NCBI GenBank assembly: GCA_001600635.1
Contig: BCKL01000039.1
Span: 137,930 to 167,077 of the forward strand
Direction: 5' to 3'
Source of the DNA: Leucosporidium creatinivorum
Lineage: Eukaryota > Basidiomycota > Microbotryomycetes > Leucosporidiales > Leucosporidiaceae
DNA length: 29,148 bases
The position numbers were made by a program, and so were the translations under genes. Within the stretch, counting starts at the first letter, position 1; every line of letters begins with the position of its first letter. Shown one piece after another: positions 19,511-28,731 of the stretch. The notes under the pieces were generated by a model that had not been told where the DNA came from, made no database searches, and saw nothing but the letters and a program-made list of their open reading frames with translations.

Positions 19511-22500
19511 CTATGACTTCTCCCAGAACCTAGGCAGCTGGTCTCCCGGCACAAAGATCCTCTCGACGCCGTCCTCGGTGATGATGGCCATGCGGATCGT
19601 TCCTCCCGAAGAGCCGTCGCGCGACATGGCGAGGGCGAGGGCTGTAGTGGGTAGTGGGGGAGGGTGGTGATGATGGGGAAAAGGGAGGAGAGGGGAGGAA
19701 GGGAAAGAGGAGGAGGAAGAGTCAGCGGCTGATCGGGAGAAGCGGTGGGGAGGCGCTGAGAGGCCGGCCAGCGAATCGAAGGAGAGCAAGCGAGGCTGGA
19801 TTAAGCGAGGACGTGTCCATCAACCTCCAGCATCGCTGTAGCGAAGCAACTCCCATTGCCTCGCTCGCTGCGAAGTGGGTCGACGCTCGCTCGCTCCCGT
19901 TTTGTCCAAGAAGCGCATCAAGCAGAGCAATCGCAGAGGACAGGTAGTGGACTACCCATCTCACTGCGAAGCATCGCCTCGAGCTTCTCGGCTCGACCTG
20001 AAAGCCTCGTCCTCGAACGAGAAATCCAGACGACTCAACATCATGCCGGCGAGGAGCAGACTACAGCCTGCGCCGCGACAGCGAGTCGAGCGATCTCGCC
20101 CTCGCCTCCTGGGCAGCAGCGATGTGCTGTGCGAGGATGACTGCGGTCGGCTTCATCAAGCGCGATGAGCGAAGTAGCGCCGAGCTACTTCGCCCGCCGC
20201 GAGCCGAGGGCGCCGTCTTGACCAATGGTCGGAGGAGACCGCTCTTCAGGAGCAGAAGTGAAGAGCTATGGGAGGAAGAAGGCGCGCGGTAGCTACGCCG
20301 CCTCACGCAATTCGACCAAGCTCTTCTGGCTCCTGCTCGTCTTCCGCCGAAGCGGACGAGATGTGGAAGCCGAATGTATCACGCGGAGAGACAGCTCATT
20401 CATAGCTACAGCTCCACTGCGAAGAGGCCTCCTGCTTCTCCTGCAGATGCCAACAATGGCAAGGAAGCAAAACCAGTCGCGGAGCGAAGAACGAGGTCAA
20501 CGAGGACAGCTCCAAGCTGTCGTCGCTGAGCTCGAGCGGCACCAACTGACTCTCACAGTACTGTGCTCTCGGCACGCTGTTCGACCGAGGAGTCATCGAC
20601 TCGCACGTCTCATCAAGACAAGGCCGCCTCATCCTGCCCGAGAGCCGTTCAGGTCGACGCCTCGAGCTCGCCGCGAAGCGCGAAGCGAGGTGAAGTACAA
20701 ATCCTATCACGTCGAGCAACAGAGCTATGCTAAGCTGCCCTGCGCGAAGCTCGACTCGACCTCGCTCGATGCCGCTTAGCCGGCCAAGCCATTGGCGGAG
20801 GCAGAGCTTCTTCATCAAGACATCACGTCCAGCGAAGCAACGAGCCCTGCTCCTCTGCACGCGAAGGTCTGCTGTCGAGCCCTGTCGCCAGTCGCGACAC
20901 GGCGCCAACTTCCGACGAGCGGACAGCAGCTCGAACGATGCGCCGAGCCAGCTTGCAGCTAGCCTAGCTGCTCTCCAAAGCAGCTGTCGCTCCTCAGTTG
21001 GTCTCCACACACGAAGCGAGATGGAGGGAAGGAGTCGTTGGGTTTGAGACGAAGTGCCCAACCGACTATCGGTCAGCTCAGCGACTTACTCTCGCGCCGG
21101 TACTTCTCTCTCCGCTCAAGACAGCAGAGAAGCAAGTAGACCAGCAGCGGAGCAACATGATGACCGTCCCAATAACGAGTGCGCCCAGCTGACAGCTAGC
21201 CACACTCCATCGTAGGCGGACCCTGTCGGCTCCAGCGCGGTGAGTCGAGTGCAAGGAGGAGGGAGGGATGGAACCGAACGGGAAGAACGGGCCAGCGACT
21301 GCCGGCTCGTCCTCCTCGTATCGCCCGACCCGACCTTCCGCTCCCACGCTCAGCGCGAGCTCGGGGCTGCCGAAGGCTCTGACGGGATGAAGAAAAGCAG
21401 GGAGCATACGAAGGCTCAAGCTGGCTTCCGCCAGCTCGAGCGAGTTCGTAGTCCTCCATCTCGAACTCCTCCTGCCTCATCTCCACCTCGAGCGCGGTCA
21501 CCGATGAACGAGGAGGATCGACCCTACGAAGCTGCCGAGCAAGCATACGCCAGCGCCAGCTGTTTACGAGTAGGTTCCTCCTCCTCGCCCAGAGGCTTGC
21601 TCGACCCTTGCGAGTCAAGGAGAAGCGGGAAAGCAGCTAGGCATCGGTGCAGCTCAAGCTGGCTCCCGCCAGCTCGAGCGACTCCGAATGCTCATGCGCG
21701 CTCCCCATCGGCGGCCGACACACTTGCGCACTGCCCGACTGAAGCGACCAGGAGCGAGGAGGTGGTTGCTTGCCAAACGAGTGATCCGAGCCGGACTAGC
21801 CGACTCGAACCGTCTCGAAGCTCGCAGCGCTCCTCCCCTCCGCGAGTGGCCTCCTATCGTCCCAGACTCGAAGACTCGAAGAAGGTGTGGATTGGAAAAG
21901 AAACGACCGAGCCGGCCAATACCGAGTCGGTAAGCCTCGTAGCCCTCCCGCTCCTTCATCGCGAAGGCCATGAGCGCCGAACCGCCAGGCCTCGAAGAGG
22001 AAGGGAAGAAGCTGCTAGCCTAGCGAAAGGTCCGAGCCACCAGAAGTAGCTCAAACCACCTTGCAGCCCGCTGAACTCTTCCCTCCCGTCGGCCACCAGC
22101 GCCGAACATGAGAGGGCTGTGGGCGAAGGAACGCACCGCGATGGCCTCAACGAGGCGTCCGAGCCAGCGTTGCTGACTTAAACGTCCTCGTAAACCACCG
22201 TGCTCCTCCTCCGCGCCTTCCAGCAATGCCGACTGGTCAAGATAGCCGAGTGATCGAACGAACACGACGACCGCATCGAGAAGCGCGAGCCAGCGTCACT
22301 AACTCGAAATCACTTCGTAGCTGCCAGCTCGACTCGGTCCCCTCCCACTGCCTCTCCGAGCACCGTGGTCCAAAGACAAGAGAGCTACGCCACGGTGTAC
22401 AAGGAAGCCAAGCCAGCGCCAACGGCTAGCTCGGACACCCTCGAAGCTCGGCGCGATCCTCCTGTGCACTCTTCGACAGCGTCGACCCTTGCACCCGAGC

Positions 22501-24062
22501 GGGAAGGTTCAAGGCAGATGCGCCGTCACAACGAGCCATCCGAGCGAGCACTGCCCGGCTCGAATCGCCTCGTAGCGTAGCGTACCTCCTGCTCCTCCCT
22601 CCTTCTTCTCCTAGTCCTCCCAGCTCACGCCTCCTCCTCGCCAACCATTCCCCCGCCCACTCCCGCCCCTCGCGCCAACACATCTCCGAGAAGCAAAAGA
22701 AAAGGAGAGGCCTCAGAGTGACTCACCATTCCGAACAAACTCGACCGTCTCATCGCGGCCCCAGTCCTCGCGGTAGGTGGCATCGCAGTAGCCGTAGATG
22801 TAGGTCGAGCCGGAGCCTACGAGGTTGATGACCGAAGTGAACGGAGGCGCGAGGGGTGGGAGGGGGGAGGGGAGGGGAGAGGAGGCAGAGGTTGACGAGA
22901 GGATGAGGTGGGGAAGGCGAGGGTGAGGAGTGAAGGGGGATCATCAGCTCGGCTCCCTCCTTCCCTCCTCTGAACCTCGCTAGCGCTCGGCCGCAGCAAC
23001 TCACCACCAATAGCCCAAGGCCCTTTGAACATGCCACCTCCAAGGGGAATGTTGTACACGGTGCCGCCATTCTCCTTGTCCCAGCCGGCGACGATGATTC
23101 CGGCGGAGAGTCGGTCCCTGTTGCGATGCGAGGCGAGTTAGCTCCTGGTTCTGCAAGCAACTCGGCGAGGCGAGGCGAGGCGAGGTGAGGGTAGCAGAAG
23201 GGGAGAGTCGGGGAAGGAGGCTCGGCGCTGCTTGCTCGTAGGCGCAGCGCAGGGGCGGGGGGGCAGGAAGAGAAGGTAGTGAAAGGGTTCAAAAACCCAC
23301 TTGTTACTATAGCACAGTCCCTCCAACACCGTAGCAGCGACTTCAACGTTGGGCCGCTGCTCGTGTTGCATCGAGTACATGGCCAGTTGGGAATGGGCGA
23401 CGTCGGCGATGGCCTTTGGAGCGTTGCAGCGGGAGCGAATTGGAGGATGGGTGTTGGGTGAGCGAAGGTGGGCGTGAGGTGAGGTGATGTGGTGCAGAAG
23501 GGAGGGCAGGAGAGGCGAGGGAGAGGTGGAGCGTGCGTGCGCGTCGAGTTGAGTCGAGTGGAGTGCCGAAGCGAGATGGGATGAGGTGCAGAAGTGGAGG
23601 AGCGGGCAAGAGGAGGGTGTAGGACGATAGGATATGAAGCAAAAGTCAGCTCTCCTGCACCTCTGCATCCTCGTCCCCAGCGCGCAACCCCCTCGAGCGC
23701 ATCATCCCCTCAGCTCCCTCTGGCACATACATACCTGAGTATCGGCGGCACTACCACTCCTACAGCAGTAAATCCTCTCGTGGAGATAAGTCAACTTGTC
23801 TGTGACCCTATTGGCAATGTAAGACCCCATGGTCGTCCTCGAGTCGGCTCCTACGACGACTCCCCCTTGGAAAGCGACGGCCATGATGGAGGTCTGTAGC
23901 GTGGTACAGTATAGCGTAGCGAGAGGGATGCAGACGTCAGTAGGGCGAAGAGAGCTACAGAAGCGACAGAGGGACTGAACGCACCCCCAAGTTGACCTCG
24001 CCCGACTTGAGGTGAGCAATCTCGGGAGTGAGAGTAGTAGGGTACGAAGAGTGTTGCGCCAT
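19511..24062 (-). CDS. PRE3: 20S proteasome beta-1 subunit (PSMB6/Pre3), caspase-like active site
   Basis: Predicted 227-residue catalytic subunit of the 20S core, cleaving after acidic residues. Six exons: 24062-23985, 23893-23735, 23413-23301, 23117-23005, 22816-22727, 19641-19511, all in phase. Exon 1 encodes the 26-residue propeptide ending in Gly. Exon 2 begins with the catalytic Thr1 (TSIMAVAF), so intron 1 sits exactly at the autocleavage site. Asp17 (GADSRTT) and Lys33 (VTDKL) of the mature chain are present, as are [23 protein letters not shown] and the SRDGSSGG loop. The C-terminus reads [13 protein letters not shown]. Intron 5 (22726-19642) is 3,085 bp, against 85-321 nt for the others. 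It keeps a GTGAGT donor, a GCTGAC branch point and a CTACAG acceptor, so splicing is plausible. The gene shares its upstream region with RPN12. The protein itself looks intact. Confidence 0.93.
19642..22726 (-). repeat. Giant PRE3 intron filled with a degenerate ~120-bp tandem array
   Basis: On the plus strand a unit marked by CGAGCC(A/G)GC or CGCCAGC recurs at 21429, 21549, 21665, 21787, 21908, 22033, 22160, 22286, 22409 and 22532. The spacings are 120, 116, 122, 121, 125, 127, 126, 123 and 123 bp. Earlier, less regular matches lie near 20944, 21183 and 21288. Read in the sense of PRE3, a typical unit holds GGAGGRG, then a TACGAGG-like word, then a GTTNGAGT-like word, then GGCTCGG, separated by variable bases. 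Units are strongly diverged, and unit length is not a fixed multiple of three, so a coding repeat is unlikely. Open frames of up to 269 codons occur but have no start, intron or domain support. I see no terminal inverted repeats, no target-site duplication and no transposase. The origin is unknown. Confidence 0.7.
20169..20193. repeat. Perfect 10-bp stem, 5-nt loop hairpin inside the PRE3 giant intron
   Basis: GCGAAGTAGC at 20169-20178 is followed by five bases and its exact reverse complement at 20184-20193. It is the cleanest short inverted repeat I noticed in the intron. There is no T-run after it on either strand, so nothing marks it as a terminator. Confidence 0.8.
23164..23188. repeat. 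GGCGA pentamer microsatellite in PRE3 intron 3
   Basis: Four exact GGCGA units are followed by a GGTGA variant. On the coding strand this is a TCGCC pyrimidine-rich repeat upstream of the intron's GCTAAC branch point and CAACAG acceptor. Confidence 0.85.
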
Positions 24063-24453
24063 GCTTGTCTGTTCTGTAGCCTTGTAGGTGCGAGGTGAAA
24101 GTTGTAGTAGAAGTACAAGAGACTTGGGCCGATTTCCGACTTAGAATCGACGCGTCAGCTCAGCGCTCGTCCAGGCCTCGTCAGCTTCCCTCTCTCCCTC
24201 CCGCCTCACACTCGTCGTTCAGGCTACTATCGTCCTACAGCTCTCTCAGCCTACAAGCCTACAGCACCCGTCTGCCTCTTCCACCGTGGCACCCCCAACT
24301 CCCCTCACCTCCAAGCGTCCTCGTCCCTCCTCCCCCTCCTCTCTCTCCTCATCCAACAAACGTCCAACTCCCACGCCCGACCTCAAGGACTTGCACATTT
24401 CTCCTCTTTCCTCTACTACCGACCTCACCACCACCACTACCGCTACAGCAGGC
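24063..24453. promoter_or_regulatory. Shared divergent promoter of PRE3 and RPN12
   Basis: Only 391 bases separate the start codons of two proteasome genes, so they probably share regulatory sequence. Toward RPN12 the region is CT-rich with several CTACAG words. I looked for the ascomycete proteasome control element GGTGGCAAA on both strands and did not see it, so co-regulation, if any, uses another site. The RPN12 frame is open upstream of 24454 but has no earlier ATG in phase. Confidence 0.6.
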
Positions 24454-27400
24454 ATGAGCTCGGCCAATGCGACCAAGCTGTATGAGCAGCTTAAACTGGC
24501 CTGGAGCAAGGGGGAGGGGGAAAAGGTCAAGCAGTTGGGTGGGGCTCTGAAGGTGAGCTTCGAATGCAGAGCAGAGCTGAATGGGAGTGGGACGGAGATG
24601 GGCTGGTACAGCTGGGATGGACTCCAGGCCAGCAAGGGCAGACAGCAGCGTCAGGCCTCGCTCGCTCCGTTCCACGCTTGCTGTAGCAGAGACTGCAGCG
24701 GGCGGGGACGGTAGGTGGAAGAGCTGGCCTGGGGCACTGCGTGTGCCCCGTCCGGGTAGGGAGGCTGGTCCGCTCAGCAGCTCAGACTCGACAACGACTC
24801 AGCGGGCGTCCTCCTGTTCAGCAGAGTTGCTGGGCGGGGGTAGGGCTCGCTAAGCGGTGTGGTCGAATGGCCGCACAGCAGATGAGATATCTCAGTGTAC
24901 CTTCAGGCTCGAGCTCGCTCTCTCGGAGCATGGTTGCTCCGTGGGTCTCACCCCTTTCGCTGGCTGCCGCCCTTCCGGAAGTGGAGGATGGCCGTGAGTG
25001 ATAAATGCTGAAGACTCGAAGCGATCAAGAGTGTCCGTCGAGAGCTTCTGACAGAGCGGTCGGTCGAGGAGGTGCGCTCTCACCCTCGCCGTGGGCTCTC
25101 GGCTTTCGCTGAGCATCGAGCGGCTCTCGACCCCAGTTTTTGGTCGTGCTTCCTCATAGCTCAGCTGCGAGGAAGTAGATCGTGCTCGAGCTCCTCCATG
25201 GTCGCTCCACTCGCCGCGTCCCAGCGATGACTACTCATCTGACCCATCGCAGCCGACCTCTCCCCTTTTGAGCGCCGAGCTTTCTCCCACTGGCGGTGGG
25301 TGGGGCGGCCGTTCTGTATTTGGGGACGCGGAGTCAGCAACTACTGCATTGAGGCTCTTGTAGCGTCTCTAGAGCTCTGAGCGGAGACTGATCGCCAGCT
25401 CGGCTCTCGCTCTCGGTCGCCTTCCTGCTGTGCTCGCCTGTCTTCTTGCAGAGGGAATGGGCAGGCCGGCTATGCAGGTGGTCGGCAGAGGAGGTGCGCT
25501 CACGCTACTGCAGTCCATGCCGAGCTTCCTGGCTAGCAGCCTCTCGCTTGGGAGCTCGAGCGCTCGTCCTCGAGGCTCAGCGCGCGCGATCTCGTCAGTT
25601 TTAGCTGGACGAGGAGCGCCTGCTGGAGCTGTTCAACTTGACCGCTCGGAGTCACTAGTCGACCGCAGACACTGTGCGTTCGAGCTAGCCATGCTCGGCG
25701 CGCGTCATGGCGCCCGATATCGTCGCTTTCGCTGGATCTCTCCCTCGTCGAGACGGGGATGAGGCTGGAGATTTTCGCGGAGACTCGTGCGCTCTGTGCT
25801 ACTGCAGTGGATCGCGGTTGGAGCTCTACCCTCTGAGGGAGGTGACCACCCTGCGTCGTCTCCCTTGGCTTCGCTCGGCAGGAGCGCCTCAACTCGACTC
25901 GCTTCGGTGATGCTCCTTTCTGGCTCAGCTACGAAGGGACATGCTGTACGTTTGAGGGTAGCGGCCCCTGCAGGCGCCCTTGTTTCGCTCTGGAGTGCAC
26001 ACAGAATGGGAGTCAACGGCCGCCTTTGCGCCGAGCTCGATTCCTCGCGCCGAGGCAGCGGGCTGGCGCTTGTTGACAGGCGGGTCGAGAGTTCATATCT
26101 GCTGGCTGAGCCCTGCAGTCTTGTCCCTTGTTCTACAAGAGGACTGCTGAACGCTCCCTCGACTTGACCACTCTCGCTCTCGCGGCGCTTGCTGGTCTCG
26201 TTGGAGATCAGGAGCGTGACAGCTCTTGGGGAGCGCGAAAGTTCTGTAACGGTGCGCTTGAGTATCGAGCATCGAACAGTGTGCAGGGGCTAGCAGGGTA
26301 CGCGAGGAGTGGCGACTCGGCTGCGATGCTCTTTCCCCCTCCCGGCGGCGAGATGGGGCAGGGCTCGCTTCCAGGGCATGCTCTTGCGCACTCGGGAGGG
26401 ATTCAACGCGATCCGACGTGGCTGACCGGGGGCGGTGACTAGGTTTCGCCGAGGGCCAGCTTTGCTTCACACTTCCTTCATTTCGTCCTGCCTTTCAGCG
26501 AAGGGCGGGCGGCTGAGCTGACGTCGTGGATGTCCGGTGCTGGGACTCGCAGATCCAATAAACTGCACAGTAGCGCTCGAAGCTCCGGCGATTTGTACAC
26601 AGCGCGCTAACCACTTTCTTCTCTCCCGTCTCACAGATCGAGCTCTCCGAGCTCAACCTCCTCTTCCCCAACGTTGACGACAAGAGCAAGCTCGACATCG
26701 GCGGACTGACTACCGCTCGTGCGTCCCTCGCCTCTTCTCTCCGACTCGCTGAGCTGCCGCTGACTCTCCTCGACATCGCACAGGCGACATCCTCGAGATT
26801 GGCGCGCTCCAGTCGATCCGCTCCGAGGACGTTCCTGCTTTCGAGAGGTACTGGAGCCTGTTGGGCACTTACTACAATGATCTTGCGTGCGTTTCGACTT
26901 TCATCCGCTCGCTCGCCGCGTCGCTGACCGAAGCTCCCTTCCCTCCTCTCCTCCCCTTCCCCCTCTTCTCCTCCTCGTCTCACTCTCGCTTCTACACCGC
27001 TCGCCTCCGGACCACAGAGCCTACCTCCCCCGCTCCTCGAACCAGTCGGCCCTCTTCGCCCTCTCCCTCCTCCGCCTCCTTTCTCAGAACCGCATCGCCG
27101 AATTCCACACTCTGCTGGAGACGCTCGAGACCGAGATCAAGGACAGCAAGGAGGTCGGATGGGTGCTGACTGTGAGTTGTCGCCACTCTAGCGTCATGCC
27201 GCAATCGCTCGAGGAGAGGATGAGCGAGACGGCCAGCGAGCTGACCCCCCTCGTCGCCATCTTGCAGCTCGAGCGCTCCCTAATGGAAGGCTCCTACTCT
27301 CGCGTCTGGCAACTCTGCCGTCCCACCAGCAGCACCTCAGCGCTCCCCGTCCCCGAATTCGCCTTCTTCACCACCTCGCTCGTCTCGACCGTGCGCAACG

Positions 27401-27773
27401 AGATTGCCTCGTGCGATGAGAGGGCCTACAACACTTTGCCGCTGAGGGACGCGCAGACGTTGCTGTTCTTTGAGAGTGAGGAGGGGGTTCGCGAGTTTGG
27501 TCAAGCCGTACGCCCTCTTCCTCCCTTCTTCCCTTTTGCTGCAGCGCACCGCAAGCTGACCCGAGTGCGTTGAACGAACAGCGCAACTGGCACATCACCC
27601 CCACCACCCCTTACGTCATTCATTTCCCTTCCTCCCCTTCTCATCCCTCGCAGACGGGCGTTCCGAATGCGTTGAACACGGGAAGGACGGTCGGAGAGGA
27701 TAAGGAGTTGGATAAGGAGAAGGTGGTTAAGGCTACCCTTGGGTATGCGAGGGAGTTGGAGAGCATTGTGTAG
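24454..27773 (+). CDS. RPN12: 26S proteasome regulatory lid subunit Rpn12 (PSMD8)
   Basis: Predicted 289-residue subunit of the 19S lid, which joins last and couples lid assembly to the base. Six exons: 24454-24552, 26637-26718, 26784-26886, 27018-27171, 27268-27507, 27582-27773; phases and length agree. The N-terminal helices (SANATKLYEQLKLAWSKGE) are followed by LNLLFPNVDDKSKLDIGGLT, then GALQSIRSEDVPAFERYWSL, SRVWQLCRPTSS and SLVSTVRNEIASCDERAY. The C-terminal half is the SAC3/eIF3k-like winged-helix (CSN8/PSMD8) domain, and the protein ends in a helix (VVKATLGYARELESIV). Length is close to that of yeast Rpn12. The start at 24454 is the first ATG in the open frame. Intron 1 is 2,084 bp; all others are 66-131 nt. 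The gene is divergent from PRE3. The family call is firm, and the short N-terminal extension is typical. Confidence 0.9.
24553..26636 (+). other. Giant first intron of RPN12
   Basis: The intron has a GTGAGC donor at 24553 and ends with GCGCTAACC, a pyrimidine tract and CACAG at 26636, all of local type. Inside I see no gene with domain support. Repeated words occur: GAGGAGGTGCGCTC at 25066 and 25488, each preceded by GGTCGG; GCTACTGCAG near 25503 and 25798; and AGGAGCGCCT near 25611 and 25880. They resemble parts of the PRE3 intron unit in the same transcriptional sense, for example CGAGCTAGCC at 25681, which is also found in sense orientation at 22433-22424. Periodicity is less clear than in PRE3. 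An internal CTGACCCATCGCAG at 25239-25252 looks like a usable 3' splice site. Confidence 0.65.
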
Positions 27774-28507
27774 AGCGGTGTGGGAGAACTAGTGACGAGA
27801 GGATGTGTACTGAGATTGAAGAGGCGAGAGGAGAGTGAGGCGAAGGAGGATGGGAAGAGCTGCTCGGTGTAGCTGAGACAGCTGATGAGGTCGACCTTTT
27901 CAGATACGGGCTACAGTACCCGAGCGAGACAGAGCTGTAGCGAGCGACTCTGTTTTCAAGCAGCCCTGCAGTGCACCACTGCACCTCGACAGCTCGCCTC
28001 TCTCAGCTCGCTCGCCCTGCCCTCTCTTACTCTCCCCTCCTTCTACCTCGCTGGTCTCTTCGCTCACCTGGCCTCGTCTCGAATCCACCACAGCGTACAG
28101 GCCTCGCTATGCTCAGCTCTCGGGCCTACCGCCTCTTCCCATCGCGCTCGCTCAGCTGAAAGCAGCTCCACCCTCGATGCTCCTTCGCCTCGCAGCGCTC
28201 TTCTGGCCAGGTCTCACTCGCTCAGCAGCAGCAGCCTCGCGATCGAAGGATATCTGGACCGACCTACAGCCCGCCTCTGCTCCCCCTACACCTCAACTCA
28301 CCTGCAAACGGCGCAGCGACGTACACTCCCCGCCCGTCGCCTGCCTCTCCAGCCCGTCTCTTGCTCGGCTACCGTCTTACAGCTCTACATCCTCTCTCTC
28401 CTAGCTCCCAGCGCCTTGTTACCGCCCTACAGCTTCCTCGACTCCCGAATCGCCACCCCCACTTCCTGTCTCTCGCAAGCCTCCCCGAACCTCACCTCCC
28501 CGTCAAA
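27774..28507. promoter_or_regulatory. Intergenic region and leader of Yippee copy B
   Basis: The first 450 bases show no gene. They contain a GCTACAG and CTGTAGC pair near 27910-27943 that could form a weak stem. From about 28252 the sequence belongs to the inverted duplication and is the CT-rich leader of the Yippee gene. Its homology to the left arm is clear but patchy compared with the coding part. Confidence 0.5.
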
Positions 28508-28731
28508 ATGGGCTTCAAACCACGAGAGTACCTCACCTCGGAGCACAAGGTCTTTGGCTGCCACGTCTGCAAGACTCATTTGGCGACGGCGGAATGTATT
28601 GAGAGCAAGGTGCGTCGTTGCCGAGCCGGATTTCGGGGGCGAGAGCTGACTCGCTGGCTTGTGGATTGGGCAGAGCTTCAATGGGCAGCATGGGAAGGCG
28701 TTCTTGTTTACTAGTGTGTGAGTTTCCGCTT
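28252..28731. repeat. Terminal inverted duplication, right arm (partner 1-480)
   Basis: This arm pairs with the reverse complement of 1-480. The last 60 bases (28672-28731), covering the intron 1 acceptor, exon 2 and the start of intron 2, are identical to the first 60 bases of the window. The contig continues past this arm but not past the left one. Confidence 0.85.

Follow-up and report, generated by a model that had tools for sequence, protein, structure and literature searches.

An oversized last intron, predicted to be folded, in the PRE3 gene of Leucosporidium creatinivorum with a diverged tandem array of predicted hairpins

The last intron of the proteasome gene PRE3 in L. creatinivorum contains 14 diverged tandem units of about 120 bp, each with one RNA hairpin predicted at a homologous position on the sense (transcribed) strand. 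Across the whole intron the sequence is more strongly folded than shuffled sequence, and more so on the sense strand. The explanation preferred here, which is put forward tentatively and at less than even confidence, is that of an oversized, folded spliceosomal intron which has grown in part by duplication of a hairpin unit and whose hairpins act in cis. The window, that is the whole stretch of DNA analysed, consists of 29,148 nucleotides of contig BCKL01000039.1 (assembly GCA_001600635.1).

Results

The PRE3 gene and its last intron

PRE3, the proteasome beta-1 gene, lies on the minus strand and was correctly called in an earlier sequence-only reading of this DNA. Among solved chains, the spliced protein matches 8fz5_H (proteasome beta type-6) best, in an alignment that has no gap, not even at the exon junction; Pfam family PF00227 extends across residues 23-205, and yeast PRE3 entries are also among the solved-chain matches. 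The other four introns have 91-321 bp. Intron 5 (Table 1) has the GT...AG ends and, once spliced, the uninterrupted frame of a spliceosomal intron, with splicing predicted from the sequence. Its sense strand is T-rich, and the word GCTGAC near its 3' end is a putative branch point.

Table 1 Features of the PRE3 and RPN12 introns (positions in the window; all hairpins are predicted)
Feature	Position	Strand	Remarks
PRE3 intron 5 (last)	19642..22726	minus	3085 bp, GTGAGT...ACAG ends; spliced model reads through
Intron 3' end	19642..19726	minus	GCTGAC word resembling a branch point; pyrimidine tract; ACAG; no pairing in MFE fold
Rest of intron	19722..20898	minus	without the 120-bp array; lags 325 and 97; z sense -6.3, antisense -2.3
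Array, 14 diverged tandem hairpin units, ~120 bp each	20899..22609	minus	autocorrelation, alignment A1, model R1
Unit 1 apical hairpin	22539..22564	minus
Unit 2 apical hairpin	22407..22435	minus
Unit 3 apical hairpin	22284..22308	minus	85-nt window not significant, z -0.32
Unit 4 apical hairpin	22158..22182	minus
Unit 5 apical hairpin	22031..22055	minus
Unit 6 apical hairpin	21906..21931	minus
Unit 7 apical hairpin	21785..21809	minus
Unit 8 apical hairpin	21653..21678	minus
Unit 9 apical hairpin	21534..21559	minus	weakest pairing probability, 0.51
Unit 10 apical hairpin	21415..21440	minus
Unit 11 apical hairpin	21286..21311	minus
Unit 12 apical hairpin	21180..21204	minus	sequence-homologous register
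Unit 13 apical hairpin	21056..21082	minus	z -1.79
Unit 14 apical hairpin	20943..20967	minus	sequence-homologous register
RPN12 intron (neighbouring)	24553..26636	plus	2084 bp, GTGAGC...CAG; boundaries by eye; downstream exon matches PF10075

The tandem array

A periodicity of about 120 bp, for which the sequence-only reading had set a comparison with dinucleotide shuffles, was confirmed by 5-mer autocorrelation of positions 20944-22540. The top peak was at lag 125 (z 11.7), with more peaks at 237-238 and 251, and the observed maximum was reached by none of 200 dinucleotide shuffles, nor by any of 100 in a repeat run. The same reading had listed ten CGAGCC/CGCCAGC markers, nine of which are exact (CGCCAGC at 21429, 21548, with another at 21554, and 21667; CGAGCC at 21787, 21908, 22033, 22160, 22286 and 22532), the tenth being the variant CAAGCC at 22409; their spacing measures 119-127 bp rather than the 116-127 bp that had been claimed. 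Before the markers lie four further units at 20899-21381, which brings the total to 14.

The units, homologous and arranged head to tail as in a tandem array, are spaced 106-132 bp from centre to centre. Their mean aligned identity is 0.64 (range 0.54-0.73) in permissive pairwise alignment, and all 14 were recovered at E 6.8e-6 or better by model R1, which was built from the same units. Tandem Repeats Finder gave no row of ~120-bp period at the array, presumably owing to the extent of divergence between the copies. The description of the array as old, diverged and situated within the PRE3 intron is supported; ORF 21216-22046 (+), the one long ORF scanned in the array, had no Pfam match. A coding repeat of ~40 amino acids was rejected, since most marker and unit spacings are not divisible by three and that ORF matched no Pfam family.

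Predicted hairpins and foldedness of the intron

The hairpin of each unit, which the earlier reading had missed, is predicted to have an apical stem of 11 bp, closed by a loop of 3-7 nt, over a unit-specific lower stem. Windows of 85 nt on the 14 loops had a mean z of -3.05, with 12 of 14 below -2, compared with a mean of -0.15 and one of 13 at the midpoints; on the antisense strand of the same loop windows, 8 of 14 units were below -2. Each apical loop is borne by an exterior stem of 18-45 predicted pairs, with a single hairpin loop in 11 of 14 cases, and the whole 3-kb intron has 20 exterior stems with at least 26 predicted pairs each. By fold prediction, one transcript would carry repeated long hairpins, as do hpRNA or miRNA-like precursors.

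Foldedness was expressed as z from shuffles of 200-bp blocks, with 11 tiles on 2 strands as controls (z -1.6 to +3.8). The array had z values of -6.1 (sense) and -4.0 (antisense). The remaining 1.2 kb of the intron is equally folded and the RPN12 intron more weakly so, neither of which had been seen in the earlier reading. Folding above shuffled sequence with a sense bias, as expected of a structured functional intron RNA, is seen, the strand difference being small within 21200-22646 (-3.6 vs -3.0). Intron 2 of PRE3 (321 nt) is unfolded (z +1.8). Predicted contraction of the intron was not above that of 16 shuffles (201 vs 162, sd 31), leaving compaction that draws the splice sites together unsupported. 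Branch-point-like CTRAC words occur once in the intron body against 5.0 in shuffled sequence (10 of 300), and for words resembling a 5' splice site there is no depletion (2 vs 2.1).

Conservation and covariation

Column conservation was highest in the two apical arms (0.56 and 0.62), with 0.49 in the lower stem and 0.31-0.44 outside the stem. Conserved columns of alignment A1 lie mostly inside the hairpin, and no box-like words were seen outside it by eye.

Once the alignment ignores the fold, pairing within units modestly exceeds that between swapped arms, in the apical stem only: 124 of 150 apical pairs form between own arms (82.7 %) vs 77.6 % (sd 1.7) after arm swapping, 15 of 5000 swaps. 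On the same sequence-only alignment the lower stem showed no coevolution, and A-C mismatches were not significantly depleted (6 vs 9.2; 319 of 5000). Pairs changed on both sides were not above shuffled (7 vs 5.8; 165 of 500), and RNAalifold on A1 kept only 7 pairs (-2.21 kcal/mol). With stems in the sequence-homologous register, 141 of 154 positions were paired vs 121.8 (sd 3.1) after arm swapping (0 of 5000).

The sequence-only alignment was preferred because the whole-arm swap test (0 of 5000) is biased by fold-chosen centres: in 12 control sets centred in this way own arms also beat swapped arms, with a mean z of -3.95 (range -2.0 to -4.9), compared with -5.5 for the array, or -6.3 with blind centring as in the controls. 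Likewise, in units 21262 and 21018, a stem register chosen by the fold overstates pair flips.

Other long introns and searches for further copies

The RPN12 intron had z values of -2.5 (sense) vs -0.3 (antisense), and its diverged copies -3.7 vs -1.1 and -1.4 vs +1.2. An array shared with this intron was rejected, the period there not being significant (reached by 9 and 11 of 100 shuffles), and CTRAC words are not depleted in it. The copies, ~70 % identical, keep specific pairs no better than the null (0.69-0.73 vs 0.69-0.71). In another pair of stretches, the unassigned C39:103596-105608 / 118429-120456, pair-level conservation has a z of only about 2. A probable long intron on C15 showed no sense bias in z (-1.0 vs -1.5).

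No second DNA match to the PRE3 intron was found in the genome at E<=10, in a search that skips very common words. Model R1 over 26 loci (254,001 bases) gave four matches at E<=1 (best 0.17) and no further array. The pattern CGAGYYRGYN{3,5}GCYRGCTYG occurs at 8 places genome-wide, 3 of them inside the array (backward control 1); in five 1.3-kb stretches around the remaining places R1 gave 4 matches, one each in 4 stretches (best E 0.013), and no array. As the genome was searched by DNA match and pattern, a diverged array elsewhere could escape. No Rfam family reached the gathering score in the window, and none of three matches at E<=1 in 19600-26700 overlaps the PRE3 intron; a snoRNA or other known RNA family was accordingly rejected, there being no covariance-model match in the intron.

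Discussion

Under the preferred explanation, the intron transcript would be packed with local hairpins, part of its length having arisen by tandem duplication of a single hairpin-forming unit of ~120 nt. The hairpins may keep the 3-kb intron folded during transcription yet leave its 3' splice site, pyrimidine tract and branch point accessible, and the folding would thereby shield splicing from internal signals; duplication of a self-folding unit could be a harmless route to a longer intron. On its side are the folding of the array and of the remaining intron beyond the control tiles, the strongly folded loop windows, the conservation and own-arm pairing of the apical stem, the sense bias shared by the RPN12 intron and its copies, the unfolded intron 2 and the depletion of CTRAC in the PRE3 intron body; against it are a contraction no greater than in shuffled sequence, the antisense folding of the array and its small strand difference in 21200-22646, the few pairs kept by RNAalifold, the lower stem without coevolution, the undepleted A-C mismatches, the pairs changed on both sides at shuffled level, the undepleted 5' splice-site-like words and RPN12 CTRAC words, the lack of specific pairs kept in the RPN12 copies and the unbiased C15 intron. 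If the hairpins matter, nature provides here a test of two points: whether a long intron must stay folded when the other introns of its gene are short, and whether such introns grow through duplication of a self-folding unit.

In Saccharomyces cerevisiae, long stems are reported to be commoner in introns than in coding regions or in decoys that are not spliced, many longer introns being structured and most short ones depleted of stems (PMC12350175). The structures described there are individual stems (zipper, downstream and others) in longer introns mostly of 400-500 nt, whereas the PRE3 intron is 3 kb filled by its predicted exterior stems, its 14 array hairpins are tandem homologues, and its contraction is not above shuffled.

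It is also quite possible, if rather less than probable, that the array goes back to an ancient tandem duplication of a palindromic unit and is now decaying without function. Hairpin-prone DNA could slip in replication, and hairpin-templated repair would restore some arm complementarity; transcription-linked mutation (on the sense strand, T over A and G over C) could turn G-C into G-U pairs and make the structure look sense-specific. The divergence of the units, the single match in the genome, the T-rich sense strand and the lack of specific pairs kept in the RPN12 copies agree with such decay, the strong antisense folding of the array fits a DNA palindrome, and pair coevolution is modest and confined to the apical stem, with fold-chosen centres favouring own arms in the control sets as well. 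If the units only shared an ancestral hairpin, however, arm swapping should cost no pairing, yet a loss is present on the sequence-only alignment; conservation peaks on both apical arms, the non-array part is equally folded, and composition is already accounted for by the dinucleotide shuffles. If neutral, the array serves as a warning: palindromic repeats in tandem can mimic conserved RNA structure. Introner elements are repeat-like intron sequences dispersed over many genes. The array resembles these, and diverged minisatellites, in its tandem non-coding units or repeat-like intron sequence; unlike introners, whose numerous near-identical copies occupy the introns of various genes, it has no second DNA match, and the genome search found no such array outside this intron.

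An unlikely alternative is that the excised intron or pre-mRNA would serve as a polycistronic Dicer precursor of miRNA-like or endo-siRNA small RNAs. The 14 tandem hairpins have long, mostly single-loop predicted stems, and the Dicer and Argonaute expected of a host are present at the domain level: Dicer_dimer (2 places), Piwi, RNase III and RdRP were identified as domains, not as assembled genes. There is precedent in the available text on Drosophila hp-CG4068, whose tandem hairpins share a common transcript, with 20 copies in D. melanogaster and 9 in D. simulans, and yield siRNAs that disappear in dcr-2 mutants (PMC10317233); the PRE3 copies differ in being much diverged, sited in a proteasome-gene intron and known from sequence alone. 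Fungal mi/milRNA loci likewise have stem-loop precursors, some of them intronic, notably in Cryptococcus, and the available text mentions no tandem array among them (PMC9757828). Against small-RNA production, an intronic position is very rare among published fungal mi/milRNAs outside Cryptococcus (PMC9757828), no other place in the genome matches the intron at E<=10, so that no target of long complementarity was found, and the folding of the remaining PRE3 intron and of the RPN12 intron is left unexplained. The fuller proposal, that the 14 hairpins (~20 with the rest of the intron) would be processed to small RNAs and couple proteasome expression to small-RNA output, is more doubtful still. 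If the hairpins feed Dicer, the array would stand as the counterpart, in a fungal intron, of the tandem hairpin RNAs of Drosophila. A literature search covering titles and abstract openings, with most subscription journals outside its scope, found no description of tandemly arrayed hairpins in fungal introns.

That the units are tandem protein-binding or structured non-coding RNA elements regulating PRE3 (snoRNA-like, landing sites for dsRBD proteins or RNase III, or transcription checkpoints) is very improbable given the Rfam results and the position of the conserved A1 columns mostly in the hairpin rather than in box-like words outside, while a regular run of similar hairpins would suit cooperative binding.

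Host gene and array

The anatomy of the last intron of PRE3 (proteasome beta-1, minus strand) is very probably that of a tandem array of hairpin-forming units set within a long, folded intron. Once spliced, the six minus-strand PRE3 exons encode 227 residues that include a single complete Proteasome domain. Among solved chains this protein has 34 matches, yeast PRE3 entries included; its alignment with the best of them, 8fz5_H (proteasome beta type-6), is free of gaps even where the exons flanking the 3,085-bp intron meet. The remaining four introns are of 91-321 bp. The genome (27.7 Mb, 63 contigs; the window is on contig C39) gives the impression of a GC-rich basidiomycete yeast. PF00227 matches it 30 times, and matches pairing as exons of the same gene lie at most about 480 bp apart, one pair on contig C15 excepted; the gap in that pair is 1,020 bp long, and its initial 590 nt are probably intronic.

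The ~120-bp periodicity proposed in the sequence-only reading was recovered, since the 5-mer autocorrelation of 20944-22540 is highest at a lag of 125 bp (z 11.7), a maximum matched by 0 of 200 dinucleotide shuffles, and rises again at 237-238 and 251 bp. Nine of the ten markers reported there are exact, the one at 22409 being a variant, and their spacing is 119-127 bp rather than 116-127 bp; the proposed extent (20944-22540) grew on sequence-based extension to 14 units. The units are old and diverged, with a mean aligned identity of 0.64 (range 0.54-0.73, permissive pairwise alignment). Pairwise scores are on average highest for adjacent (66.3) and second-neighbour (67.0) units, compared with 46.7 for shuffled sequence, and units five and six apart also score high (62.6 and 65.6). 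The array is missing from the Tandem Repeats Finder output. The non-array part of the intron has weaker repeat lags of its own (325 and 97 bp), perhaps an older array.

A DNA-level search of the genome, skipping very common words, found no second match to the intron, and the best match of a covariance model built from the 14 units, over 254 kb of genome sequence, had only E 0.17. A short sequence pattern occurs at eight places in the genome, three of them inside the array; no second array was found in the surroundings of the other five.

Positions of features (bare coordinates, window; C39 and C13, contigs)
Feature	Position	Strand
Array, 14 units	20899-22609	-
Non-array part of PRE3 intron	19722-20898	-
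Between PRE3 and RPN12, divergent transcription	24062-24553	
RPN12, in the window	24444-27780	
RPN12, partial copy	C39:127812-131184	-
RPN12, partial copy	C39:175917-178845	+
RPN12, partial copy	C39:191475-192172	-
Second homologous pair	C39:103596-105608	-
Second homologous pair	C39:118429-120456	+
Inverted repeat, left	1-471	
Inverted repeat, right	28258-28730	
Proteasome-domain exon	C13:5683-6548	
Proteasome-domain exon	C13:109625-110490	

Predicted hairpin in each unit

Every unit has a predicted hairpin on the sense (minus) strand at the same aligned position, in which a 3-7-nt loop caps an 11-bp apical stem that a small internal loop separates from a lower stem. Standard pairs fill 141 of the 154 apical-stem cells over the 14 units, including 33 G-U, and A-C stands in 3. 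The fold energy relative to shuffled sequence (z, negative when more folded) of 85-nt windows centred on the loops, with centres derived from the fold, averaged -3.05 in sense, where 12 of the 14 were below -2, and -1.71 in antisense, where 8 of the 14 were, compared with -0.15 at the 13 midpoints between loops (one below -2). A blind best-centre search came within 2 nt of the fold-derived centres in 11 of 14 units. When the intron was folded with a span limit, apical stems had mean pairing probabilities of 0.79-1.00 in 13 units and of 0.51 in unit 21534-21559. Identity along the unit is highest in the apical arms (0.56 and 0.62), followed by the lower stem (0.49) and the remainder (0.31-0.44), a peak not expected of an evenly decaying array, although the apical arms are also where alignment is easiest.

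Pairing tests and possible roles

With the register guided by the fold, own apical arms scored 141 against 121.8 (sd 3.1) for swapped arms (0 of 5000), a test biased by the fold-chosen centres. Own arms also beat swapped arms in 12 control sets from the window, centred on their best hairpins (mean z -3.95, range -2.0 to -4.9); the array gave -5.5, or -6.3 with blind centring as in the controls and only -1.9 with exactly periodic centres. In a stricter test, with units cut at sequence anchors and aligned from sequence alone, the apical excess persisted (124 of 150, 82.7 % vs 77.6 %, sd 1.7; 15 of 5000), ranging from 2 to 54 of 2000 across five aligner settings. On the sequence-only alignment the lower stem had no own-arm excess (2514 of 5000), both stems together gave 126 of 5000, and apical A-C mismatches were not significantly depleted (6 vs 9.2, 319 of 5000). 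A pair counter agreed, with 77.6 % paired vs 74.4 % in shuffled sequence (9 of 500; slid partners 30-52 %), but pairs changed on both sides were no commoner there than shuffled (165 of 500); in the core alignment (A2) it gave 76.9 % vs 72.3 % (3 of 500). RNAalifold kept only 7 pairs of alignment A1. Given these graded outcomes, pair-level evidence for selection on RNA exists, yet is modest.

Our first, tentative choice is that the hairpins have a cis structural role. Branch-point-like CTRAC words are scarce in the intron body (19732-22716, sense; 1 vs 5.0 shuffled, 10 of 300), a depletion absent from the antisense strand and from the long intron of the neighbouring RPN12. Against a structural role, predicted contraction of the intron was no better than shuffled (201 vs 162, sd 31), and splice-donor-like words were not depleted. 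That the units are a neutral palindromic repeat ranks somewhat lower in probability. A hairpin-RNA precursor is an unlikely candidate. Dicer_dimer, Piwi, RNase III and RdRP domains in the genome mean that parts of an RNAi machinery exist. siRNA-making tandem hairpin arrays are described for flies in PMC10317233; intronic fungal miRNA-like loci are rare, Cryptococcus excepted, according to PMC9757828.

Folding beyond the array

Unusual folding extends past the array into the rest of the intron. With block shuffles, z was -6.1 sense and -4.0 antisense for the array and -6.3 and -2.3 for the other 1.2 kb, compared with -1.6 to +3.8 in 11 control tiles (both strands). Whole-region shuffles (12 each) gave -9.6 sense and -2.6 antisense for 19722-22646, only -3.6 and -3.0 for its sub-part 21200-22646, and +2.0 to +9.7 in five 2-kb control regions. 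The 321-nt PRE3 intron 2 had +1.8 and +0.4, and the initial 590 nt of the gap on C15 had -1.0 and -1.5 (sense and antisense). Among 85-nt windows of the long PRE3 intron, 14 of 200 sense and 2 of 200 antisense were at or below -40 kcal/mol; the sense strand of the RPN12 intron had 6 such windows among 134, and there were 130 among 17,648 elsewhere (both strands).

In RPN12, the divergent neighbour, one intron likewise reaches 2,084 bp, and its block-shuffle z was -2.5 on the sense and -0.3 on the antisense strand; the two divergently transcribed proteasome genes both carry unusually long introns. Several diverged partial copies of RPN12 exons and/or the long intron, about 70-94 % identical by piece, all lie on the 198-kb C39. 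Diverged copies of the intron had z -3.7/-1.1 and -1.4/+1.2 (sense/antisense). A further result against a structural role is that copies of the RPN12 intron, which are about 70 % identical, did not retain particular pairs (0.69-0.73 vs null 0.69-0.71). A second homologous 2-kb pair on C39, 69 % identical, also folds stably with a sense bias (-4.1/-0.6 and -2.4/0.0). A scan in 1-kb tiles (454 in total) covered 130 kb of contig C1 and 99 kb of C39. Energies under -0.40 kcal/nt occurred in 15 tiles, every one of them on C39 and in or overlapping the PRE3 intron, the RPN12 intron and its copies, or the second homologous pair.

Other features

Inverted repeats, 86 % identical, lie near both window ends, and the contig bases immediately outside the window are N on the left and right. 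The right copy overlaps a putative yippee-type zinc-binding gene, recognised by eye. Contig C13 carries two identically scoring Proteasome-domain exons, oppositely oriented and separated by about 104 kb, which may reflect either an inverted duplication or the assembly.
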